Shown: positions 18,110-29,010 of the stretch, one piece after another | Layout of the letters: each line of letters opens with the position of its first letter | Position numbering within the stretch: the stretch's first letter is position 1 | Notes under the pieces: generated by a model | Told to the model about the DNA's origin: nothing | Databases searched by the model: none | The model's input: the letters and a program-made list of their open reading frames with translations, nothing else | NCBI GenBank assembly: GCA_033220425.1 | Contig: CM065646.1 | Coordinates: 4,967,501 to 5,031,500, forward strand | Source: Lepraria neglecta | Taxonomy: Eukaryota; Ascomycota; Lecanoromycetes; Lecanorales; Stereocaulaceae | Reading direction: 5' to 3' | Length of the DNA: 64,000 nt | Position numbers and translations under genes: made by a program

Positions 18110-19785
18110 TCATTCGCCAGGAAAACCTTTGCGAAGATTGTCAAACTTTGACTCCGGACATGTCAATGTATTGTTGCTTCGATCCATATTTGCGCCGCCA
18201 AGGACCTGATTGACCTGGAAAAACGCAAAGTCAGTTCGCGACTTGATATCCCAGTGCAAACCTTACCGTCCCAATAATACTATCCTCCCCCCCCTTATCC
18301 CCACTACTCTCCCACCACATCGCGCCTCCCAGTCCTCCCTCCTTCTTAATCCACTCGGCCTTAAACTTCGCCATCTCCTTCGTATCATAGCTCACCATCA
18401 ATCTCTTCTCAGCATCATAGCTCCAACTTGCCCCAATCTCAAAATCATTCGTCTGCCTCGCCCCCTTCTGTGGTAGCGCCTTATAATCCCAAACTCCCTG
18501 CTCCCAGCTGCCTTCGCCGGTGCCAGAAAAGGGTTTCCCGGGCCCATCAGTGGATGTGAAAGCTCGGCCGTAGAGTGGCATGCCGAGGATGATCTTTGAT
18601 GAGGCGACGCCGCGGGATTTATAGTATTCGACTGCTCGAACGGTGGAGAAGGGTGTGCTTGTTGGGTTGGAGGTGGAGGGGTGGATGTTGGATTGGTGGC
18701 CGGCGGTTGGGTCCCAGGAGCCGGCGTAGTCGTAGGCCATCAGGTTCCAGAAATCGAGGTATTGGTTCATGGCTTTGATGTGCATTTTCTCGTAGTTTTG
18801 AGGACCTGAACAGTTATTGAATACTACAGCGTTGGGGTTTTGGCATGGAAATACGTACCAGCGGGACACGCTATGGTGAGCAGCATCTTGCCTTCTTTGT
18901 GAGCTGAATGGTACACATCAAGAGCCTGCTCCTGTAAGCATGCGCACAGGACATGGCAGACAATTGGCTTACTTCTCGAGTCTCTTTGAGTAGGTCCACA
19001 AAATTCTGAGCCTCGATGTCATCTTTGGGATACTCCCAATCAACGTCCAGCCCTGAAACGTATTAGTAAGTAAAATTCACCAATTTGCTCGTCTGGTTAC
19101 CGTCAAGTCCCAGATCCTTGACCAATTGTACAGCAGACTTGGCAAAAGTCTGTCTGCCAGCTTGCGTCGAGGCTGGCTGAGCGAAATTCGAGGAATAAGT
19201 CCATCCACCAATCTATAACAGTACTTTCAGATGCCGATGCTTCTTCTTGAGGAGGAAAAGCTGCTTGATGCAGCCGTAGACATTGGTCCCAGAATCATTC
19301 CAGGAGTCGCTTGGATAGTGCTACGACATGTTAAAATACTGCAAATGCGTACGGCTATTGAGACCCACTTTGTCTGTATCAGACCATGTATCTGTGAGGT
19401 AGCTTCATTGCCACAAGTCAGATTCTATTCAGAGCCATATCAACGAGGTAGTTACACTTCACCGCTATCAGGCCTGACATTTGCAAAGGCATAAAGGATA
19501 TGGGTCAGCTTATCAGCTGGAAGATCTTGTGGATTGTGGTTCCTCCCGTAGATGGCCCTTTATAGATTAATATAGTAAAAGAAGTAATATGTCTGCATTT
19601 TCAACGCACCAATTCACAAAGTACGCAACAGCCTTGTACCCCTCCATATTTGTCGGAGGACAGCCAAAATCACCTATGAATTTGGGTATCTCTTGAACAA
19701 AAAAGGGAAAACGCGGGACCAGATAGCTTGCCAACAGGACAAGTAAAGAAAGAAAGCACGTGCAAATGGTAGGAGACCTGGCCAC
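18110..19785 (-). CDS. GH18 chitinase with one in-frame stop codon
   Basis: Endochitinase of glycoside hydrolase family 18, hydrolysing beta-1,4-GlcNAc polymers. Eight exons fit with every splice site in phase: 19610-19785, 19456-19557, 19369-19402, 19101-19320, 18973-19052, 18859-18931, 18267-18805 and 18110-18214 (442 codons). The start at 19785 gives a signal-like hydrophobic N-terminus ([16 protein letters not shown]); a later ATG at 19647 would give a form without it. Family blocks: [29 protein letters not shown] with catalytic Glu, [13 protein letters not shown] and GGAMWWE. At 19213-19215 a TAG stands where relatives have Ser (KVLLSIGGW), ahead of the catalytic motif, so the reading as given makes a truncated inactive product. 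It may be a recent pseudogene or a sequence error. A damaged second copy lies at 24765-25835. Confidence 0.85.
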
Positions 19786-20670
19786 TGTGAGATCGGTGCT
19801 GATTCGCAGCCAAGCTTAATACTTTGCGCCGATATTGAAGCGAGCTTTATGTCTCTTTGACCCGGTAATACCACAGTACAGAGGCAATATTGACAACTAG
19901 ATCTGTATGAATTGATTTACTGAGAGACAGCCAGGCTCGAAGGCCGATTTCGAGGTGTAGAGGCCAAGGTATTTCAGCCCTACAAGCCAAGTCAAAGTCC
20001 ACCAATGAGAGGTTGAAAAGGCCCAGTTCACTTAGGCACCTACTCCATAACTATATACCTGTACTCGCGTCTGCCAAGTTCGTACTGGTCATCCAATCAC
20101 ATCCATAGAATTCCTAAAGGGGCCCTAAAGGGGAAAATTCAAAAGCACAAGTTTTTAAGCCAATAAGAAAGTTCACTTCAAATTCAGGCATAAAATTTTT
20201 GCTGTAATACAAGGGTCGGTTCCGGGCACGCTATCCACCCGACGTGACAAGTATCTGTACATGGATTTTGAAAGTCAAATATCAGATCTGCACTCAGGAT
20301 CTTTGACCAATTGGCTACTCTATCTCAAGGCCGTTATAGCAATGTGTTGGATTTAATCTAGCTCAGCGTATTCTAACTGGTTTTTCGAAGTATCTCCTTA
20401 GGCAGGTAGTCTCGAATGTACTACATAGGAGAATATACAAGTTCTCAGCGACTTCGCGAATAAGAATGGTGAGCAGGGAATCAGGCAGCCCCTAACAGGG
20501 CGCAATCACCCGCGTCGCGCGACGATATAGCGGCGCTCACCCGACGCCCGATCGGGCTTCTGGAGGGGTTTGACCCAATTATCATTTCTATACTCCGCCG
20601 AACTAATTCCTTGTTCATGATCACTCCGAACCTCCAGGCCTAATTCGCCACAAGCATCGTTCTACAAATC
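19786..20670. other. Intergenic region between divergent chitinase and hydrolase genes
   Basis: About 0.9 kb holding both promoters. Short direct repetition of CTAAAGGGG near 20115-20135 and a GC-rich patch at 20510-20560; no certain regulatory site and no gene. Confidence 0.45.
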
Positions 20671-27995: not shown

Positions 27996-27999
27996 ATCT

Positions 28000-29010
28000 A
28001 CTCTTAGCCTTTCCCTCCTTTTATCTGCGCATCATTTGAACGACGGATCCGCAGCTTCAAAGATGCGCATGACGGCCATAGTAATTACTGGTTTGCCTAT
28101 GATAACATCGTGTAGGCCGGTCTTCAGTATCTCCTCCATGATAACGCCGTTTTTCGCTTGCCACTCTATAACCGACCCTTGCAGTACCCAGATCCCTCTT
28201 TGATTTATATTTCACCTCCTCGAGTTCGTCGTAGGTGATCCCTCAGGGCACCGTAGCATTGATGGCGTGCCAGAATGTTGGGAATTGCTTAGTCAGCACT
28301 GTCTTCATTAAAATTTCTGCATGCGCATATAGCTCCTTCTTTAATTAACTCAATGAACAACACCTTCTGTCCCATAATTTCATCACAGAAGACCACTTCG
28401 GTGATGCGACGGGACATCATAATGATCCTTAGCATAGATCAGAGTCAGCTGATACTTCTCTCCATTAGCTTCATTGGGCCGTATATATTCTGCGATACGG
28501 TCCTTGCTCAACCATTTGTCCTTCATGAGAATGTCAAGGTGTGAATCGTTTTGGGCTGCCCTGCCGACAGCGCGCGATAATTGCTCTGTAGCCTGACCCG
28601 ACGGCACCTCCGGCGCCATGAATGTGAATGATCAGTCACGTATTAGGGTCATCGCCCAGTAGCTTGAAGGCGAAGCGGGATGTGATATCCAAGGCGAAGC
28701 CAGAGGGTTCCGTAACTAGAGCGGCTTCGTGCTGACGATATAAGCCGATGGGTAGAATACGCCAGGCGTATAGCGTTCCGCCAGTGGGAGACTTGATGGA
28801 AAATGGGGTCTGGCTACGTAGGAAGCCAAAAGATTCAGGGACGTCGAGATCCTTGAACCAGGTCATCTGGATCTTATGGAGATAGACCACATGGGCTTGG
28901 AAGGAAGACGTCGTGAGCAGTCCCAGGAGACCAGCGTAAAGGCCGACCAAAACCGCTGCCGATATCGAGGCATACTTGAACAAGAGATAGGCCATGATGC
29001 CAGTCATCAC
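28000..29010 (-). pseudogene. Broken inverted copy of the alpha/beta hydrolase
   Basis: The 5' part (29010 down to about 28640) encodes MMTGIMAYLLFKYASISAAV and about 120 further residues almost identical to the hydrolase at 20671-21873. A CGA-to-TGA change then stops it near residue 125. Compared with the fuller copy there is an internal deletion of about 340 bp (sequence jumps from CTTGACATTC to AAGGACAAATGG near 28530). There is also an extra 115-bp segment between CAGAA direct repeats at 28271-28275 and 28386-28390. The 3' end up to the family C-terminus (near 28020-28090) is still recognisable. High identity suggests a fairly recent duplication, but the catalytic Ser region is gone, so it cannot be an active hydrolase. 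Confidence 0.88.

Follow-up and report, generated by a model that had tools for sequence, protein, structure and literature searches.

Duplicated and decaying genes at a locus of Lepraria neglecta, with a CpA-directed mark on one chitinase copy

The window analysed here, C1:4967501-5031500, is a 64,000-nt stretch of the 42.0-Mb genome (11 contigs) of Lepraria neglecta. A reading of the sequence alone had proposed that three modules, namely a chitinase, an alpha/beta-hydrolase and the 5' end of a surface-protein gene, are each present twice in it, one of them inverted, and had called for a comparison of the 18-30 kb region with itself. A self-BLAST of the window and a repeat search yielded paired matches for all three. 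The chitinase copies are in direct orientation, with 18691-20056 matching 24763-26100 (E 5e-169 for the top BLAST piece), and those of the hydrolase are inverted, with three matching pieces at 88-92% identity (E 0 for the top piece). The third pair, also direct, links 24219-24407 with 27334-27535 at 71% identity and includes a 67-nt core at 90% (E 3.5e-19). Whole-genome DNA searches, in which the best candidates were scored, gave no further copy of any module outside the locus, and the sole other copy listed for the surface-protein fragment was its partner at 27334-27535. At the protein level, the genome has relatives of the hydrolase at 55-57% on contig 7 and of the chitinases at 41% or less. 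The features are collected in Table 1.

Table 1. Features of the duplicated locus (positions in the window).
Feature	Position	Strand	Basis
Chitinase copy A, GH18	18110..20060	-	Pfam PF00704, exon map
Hydrolase copy A, one open frame, 399 codons, ATG at 20674	20649..21920	+	PF12697, E 3e-10
Identical hydrolase tract, 197 nt	20668..20864 (B side ~28817-29013)	+	alignment, shuffles
ORF of 464 codons between the hydrolase copies	22320..23714	-	ORF list
Surface-protein 5' fragment, upstream region and signal-peptide-like start only	24219..24480	-	self-BLAST, repeat search
Old dispersed repeat fragment, between surface-protein fragment and chitinase B	24482..24638	.	DNA search
Chitinase copy B, pseudogene	24763..26100	-	alignment to A, stops, CpA bias
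Surface-protein gene and upstream region, fuller copy	26230..27640	-	signal peptide, exons read by eye
Hydrolase copy B, inverted pseudogene	27985..29032	-	alignment to A, frames
Solo LTR, 110 nt, inside hydrolase B	28276..28385	.	TG...CA ends, read by eye

Chitinase A can be followed to its C-terminus through eight exon pieces placed between 18110 and 19680. Its exon at 18234-18869 matches Glyco_hydro_18 (PF00704, E 5e-35, 122 bits, cut-off 29.6), and the copy matches 132 distinct solved sequences, with GH18 chitinases on top and 6igy as the best. Each long pair had been described as one fuller and one decayed copy. The decayed status stands for chitinase B and hydrolase B, both pseudogenes, but chitinase A does not look intact either, as it contains an in-frame TAG at 19213-19215 (LL*IGGW) where both 6igy and copy B have a serine. 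TCG versus TAG is a transversion, and this stop is thus not of the RIP type. Chitinase B gave no match to 18110-18690, the C-terminal part of A, and its premature stops, four in six exon pieces and another two in a seventh, all correspond to CAG, CAA or TGG changed to TAG or TAA. Since stops made by transitions are mostly of this type, they were left out as evidence of RIP.

The pieces of the fuller surface-protein gene that were tested had no Pfam match. The dispersed repeat next to the surface-protein fragment is about 155 nt long, is found at 10 other places with 71-75% identity, and may mark a breakpoint. For the 464-codon ORF, the DNA search listed no second copy, Pfam gave no match and the composition was not RIP-like. 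The sequence-only reading had placed the block between housekeeping stretches, a description that agrees with the Pfam families found on both sides. Ten ORFs were submitted, namely 8 of the 11 listed ORFs plus two shorter ones, with 6865-8241 left out and two others of the 11 covered by a separate Pfam search. Seven of the ten gave a match, among them UCH and 4Fe-4S ferredoxin-type families on the left and MutS, Gpi1, eIF2B-epsilon and NIF3 on the right. Such families would fit a variable block between conserved stretches, which is not proof of an accessory island. Farther along the window, an AT-rich part contains degenerate tandem repeats with a unit of about 65 nt (55013-55346).

Homology between the hydrolase copies breaks off abruptly on both sides, 25 nt upstream of the start codon and 47 nt downstream of the stop. 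Copy B lacks 333 nt of A (21160-21492) and carries frameshifting indels, a TGA and a 110-nt insert. As the homology covers little more than the coding sequence, a retrocopy is one possible origin of B; neither a poly(A) nor a flanking direct repeat was seen by eye, and hydrolase A has no intron to lose. The insert is bordered on either side by CAGAA (28271-28275 and 28386-28390, read by eye), a 5-nt target-site duplication. With 40 of 43 candidates scored, its sequence has at least 40 places in the genome, counting its own. In all five regions that were chosen for suggested pairing, a stretch of 3.0 to 5.1 kb is bounded by the LTR on either side, and paired copies elsewhere lie about 5.07 kb apart. 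Judged by these characters, the insert is a solo LTR.

The hydrolase copies had been noted to be nearly identical at their 5' end. Over 197 nt they are in fact identical, and the remainder differs at approximately 9-10% of sites. When 71 mismatches were shuffled over 930 sites, the longest identical run in 20,000 shuffles was 161, so that a run of 197 was never reached. The dS value is 0.02 inside the tract versus 0.23 outside. Ectopic gene conversion would leave just such an abrupt change to identity within an otherwise diverged pair, and a recent event of that kind is the simplest, and a probable, reading of the tract. It is also possible that the 5' identity comes from a second local copying event.

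The dS values agree with the earlier proposal that the duplications differ in age. In the chitinase exons dS reaches 0.75, with a dN/dS of 0.12 (190 codons from six of the eight pieces, five dropped for a stop). The hydrolase, measured without its identical tract, has a dS of 0.23 and a dN/dS of 0.31 (217 codons, two dropped). Mismatches at codon positions 1, 2 and 3 number 24, 17 and 67 of 216 each in the chitinase pair, and 19/287, 11/285 and 38/286 in the hydrolase pair. This pattern suggests that the B copies, now decayed, were long under selection and that their decay came late. The excess at position 3 could stem from selection on A alone, and it is solely from the low counts at position 2 that we infer past selection on the B copies. 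In the chitinase pair this count is 17/216, versus 234/643 outside exons, a level that position 2 should approach much more closely if B had been unconstrained ever since its duplication. On the same comparison, we rejected the idea that the chitinase copies diverged wholly by free decay.

The chitinase pair outside exons and the surface-protein fragment, with its 71% identity, look similarly old. Together with the conversion-like tract, this similarity speaks for one old duplication of a block holding all three pairs, followed by inversion and shuffling, with repeated conversion keeping the hydrolase pair young-looking. We nevertheless deem such a history rather unlikely. The homology of the hydrolase pair ends abruptly, whereas that of the chitinase pair extends about 380 nt beyond the first located exon piece, and the present gene order and orientation would, by reasoning, require at least two further rearrangements.

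The differences in both long pairs had been described as mostly transitions and attributed to RIP. Transitions do outnumber transversions in both, with 54:17 for the hydrolase and 224:151 over 1355 aligned columns for the chitinase (207:135 over 1291 trimmed columns). The attribution to RIP stood up for the decayed chitinase copy, where the changes are CpA-specific and polarised and can be set beside transposon controls, and not for the hydrolase pair, whose CpA polarity is not significant. Our main test took C/T differences with an identical next base in both copies and counted them by direction. In the chitinase pair, CpA to TpA changes number 49 towards B and 13 towards A (p 5e-6), and the other contexts have no bias towards B (B:A 7:16 for CpG, 13:14 for CpC and 17:14 for CpT; Fisher 6e-5 for CpA versus the others). 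The CpA polarity becomes 30:4 when only columns in windows at least 70% identical are counted. Of 135 CpA sites, 49 are altered towards B. The observed/expected ratio of CpA is 0.89 in B and 1.20 in A, and GC is 0.43 versus 0.46. The composite RIP index of B is 0.14, a value reached by none of 500 windows in the first 54 kb (1338 nt each, step 100, mutually overlapping, none overlapping chitinase B); that of A is -0.52.

These observations support RIP as the likely cause of the CpA bias of chitinase B. The dose would have been light, as the excess of CpA changes is 36 out of 342 mismatches in the trimmed alignment; by this count, the bulk of the chitinase divergence is not RIP. RIP-type changes at codon positions 1 and 2 amount to 11/47 towards B and 0/36 in reverse in six exon pieces. 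Over eight pieces, the 49 RIP-type changes are distributed as 8, 5 and 15 at codon positions 1, 2 and 3, with 21 outside. The changes at positions 1 and 2 imply that they fell when chitinase B was little constrained, in its unconstrained phase or at the start of it.

Two features of the pair count against this reading of chitinase B, namely the absence of CpA depletion in chitinase A and the low identity between the copies. RIP is described as usually affecting both copies (PMC3017866), and here only B is marked. The pair, about 1.3 kb long, is 71-74% identical overall today, with gap-free blocks at 80-92%. The rule given for Neurospora crassa in the same paper is a repeat of at least 400 bp that is at least 80% identical (PMC3017866), although an interspersed identity of 36% can suffice in this species (PMC4858203). 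The same two features would be accounted for if the CpA excess of chitinase B came from pairing with a third copy that was then lost, or from RIP spreading between repeats. Chitinase B indeed sits between the inverted hydrolase copies, and a DIM-2-dependent pathway acting on repeat-flanked single-copy regions is described for N. crassa (PMC12543289). A lost copy cannot be seen, however. As for spreading, none of the other modules in the spacer is RIP-like, though a 500-nt window across the edge of chitinase B (24501-25000) has an index of 0.81. We give this pair of explanations only a small chance. RIP spread across the whole spacer was rejected, the module indices being -0.63 for the 464-codon ORF, -0.81 for 24219-24762 and -0.69 for the surface-protein gene. 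The surface-protein fragment, with a CpA polarity of 2:2, is too short to judge.

As controls, the same polarity test was applied to LTR retrotransposon copies of this genome. The elements L062-L066 (contigs 2, 6 and 7) form a family whose members measure about 5.1 kb and whose LTRs, at about 110-120 nt, are very short; it ranges from the little-mutated L063, whose LTRs are identical, to the heavily RIP-affected L065. From L063 to L062, at 96.6% identity, the counts are 145:12 for CpA and 4:2 for CpG, with 170 transitions and 5 transversions. The differences between these two elements look like fresh RIP. From L063 to L064 and to L065, CpA polarity is 367:23 and 420:20, respectively. Between L064 and L065, both RIP-affected, it is 178:108, and between L063 and L066, both little mutated, 4:5 over 1695 columns compared. 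By this evidence, RIP directed at CpA has been active in this genome and has left a stronger signature in transposons than in chitinase B. The test detects RIP only where the two copies are unequally affected; equal RIP on both copies would escape it but would depress CpA in both. The comparison of the 58-64 kb block of the window with its copy L051 gave 43:53. That block (58001-64000) is an AT-rich repeat strongly affected by RIP (TpA/ApT 1.5-1.85 per kb, CpA observed/expected 0.22). With 34 of 151 candidates scored, its 4.4-kb body has at least 45 matches in the genome at 85-100%, counting its own. Matches to PF00145 (cytosine DNA methylase) at C1:4579567, C5:384310, C4:1123940 and C3:3036865 are candidates for RIP or methylation enzymes; RIP is a process that depends on RID/DIM-2 and on a sexual cycle.

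In the hydrolase pair, C-to-T changes towards B and towards A number 12:7 at CpA (p 0.36), 9:5 at CpG, 2:4 at CpC and 2:6 at CpT. As CpG is struck about as often as CpA, the pattern differs from that of the LTR controls, in which CpG is nearly spared. Neither copy is depleted in CpA (observed/expected 1.04 and 1.09), and the composite RIP index of B is -0.76. With the contig-7 paralogue used to polarise the changes, 29 are B-derived, 23 A-derived and 15 unresolved, so that the decay of hydrolase B is only weakly marked among them. It could be argued that RIP acted on both long pairs and that the hydrolase pair is merely less affected. Transitions are in large excess in that pair, its CpA polarity has the expected direction, and, with A taken as the ancestor, C-to-T changes in B are commoner before purines (13/121 and 13/123 before A or G) than before pyrimidines (2/118 and 3/109 before C or T). 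The lack of significant polarity, the near equality of CpG and CpA and the low index of B make us doubt it strongly, as does the share of CpA sites altered towards B, 12/111 here versus 49/135 in the more diverged chitinase pair. RIP as the chief source of hydrolase divergence was rejected. On present sequence evidence, RIP on this pair is not supported, and a faint dose is possible.

The marked pair is thus the less similar one: the chitinase copies are about three-quarters identical, and those of the hydrolase about 90%, with a 197-nt perfect block. This puzzle could be explained by timing, by a lost third copy or by the pattern of homology that RIP reads. If both pairs went through the same sexual cycles, it is tempting to speculate that RIP here picks its targets by something other than overall identity, such as homology pattern, orientation or chromatin, although we hold this to be improbable. 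If true, the locus would be a natural test of what RIP reads. Ordinary pseudogene decay through C deamination, for which one may invoke the pseudogene status and lower GC of chitinase B, is the least credible source of its CpA bias, as it would raise C-to-T changes everywhere or at CpG, and CpC, CpT and CpG have no excess towards B.

Our preferred reading, which we consider probable, is that the genes clustered here are dispensable and that their duplication and decay took place in several distinct steps. The chitinase, and perhaps the surface-protein gene as well, would have been duplicated long ago, and both chitinase copies would have been kept under selection for most of their history. Chitinase B would then have lost its function and taken a light dose of CpA-directed RIP, and chitinase A would also have acquired a stop, of a non-RIP type. 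The hydrolase would have been copied in inverted orientation, with little beyond its coding sequence. Its copy B, presumably selected for a time, would then have been broken by the 333-nt deletion, small indels and the solo LTR, and its first 197 nt would recently have been made identical to A again through ectopic gene conversion. Of this history, the sequences themselves show the pairs, the polarised CpA changes, the distribution of mismatches over codon positions, the step in identity and the LTR with its target-site duplication. It is our interpretation that the genes are dispensable, that the B copies were once under selection, that the events took place in this order, that conversion produced the identical tract and that RIP caused the CpA bias.

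Transition bias alone must not be taken as RIP, and this locus illustrates why. The hydrolase pair, which has the higher ratio of transitions to transversions, is without clear CpA polarity, whereas the chitinase pair shows such polarity at a lower ratio. The RIP reading of the hydrolase pair was misled by its transitions alone (54:17). What we describe is gene turnover of an ordinary kind, made instructive by the contrast between neighbouring pairs. Duplication, RIP, LTR insertion and probable gene conversion would all meet here in one compact case.

Solo LTRs of LTR retrotransposons have TG...CA ends and a 5-nt target-site duplication. The insert in hydrolase B has the same ends and target-site duplication, as well as paired copies elsewhere, and the LTR is short here (about 110-120 nt). 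Interlocus gene conversion between paralogues leaves a short, near-identical block with sharp edges in an otherwise diverged pair, and the hydrolase tract, a short block of identity with sharp edges in a diverged pair, resembles it. For allelic conversion in a plant-pathogenic fungus, median tracts of 432 and 539 bp are given (PMC10294615). As in the RIP of Stagonospora nodorum (PMC3017866), CpA/TpG to TpA changes are dominant and repeats elsewhere in the genome are strongly affected. Unlike there, only one of two copies is marked here, lightly and in an old, diverged pair, and the more similar hydrolase pair next to it is without a clear mark. Finally, gain and loss within the fungal chitinase family, as outlined in PMC2614207, likewise involve duplication and loss of chitinase genes; unlike the turnover outlined there, one of the losses at this locus bears a RIP-like mark.
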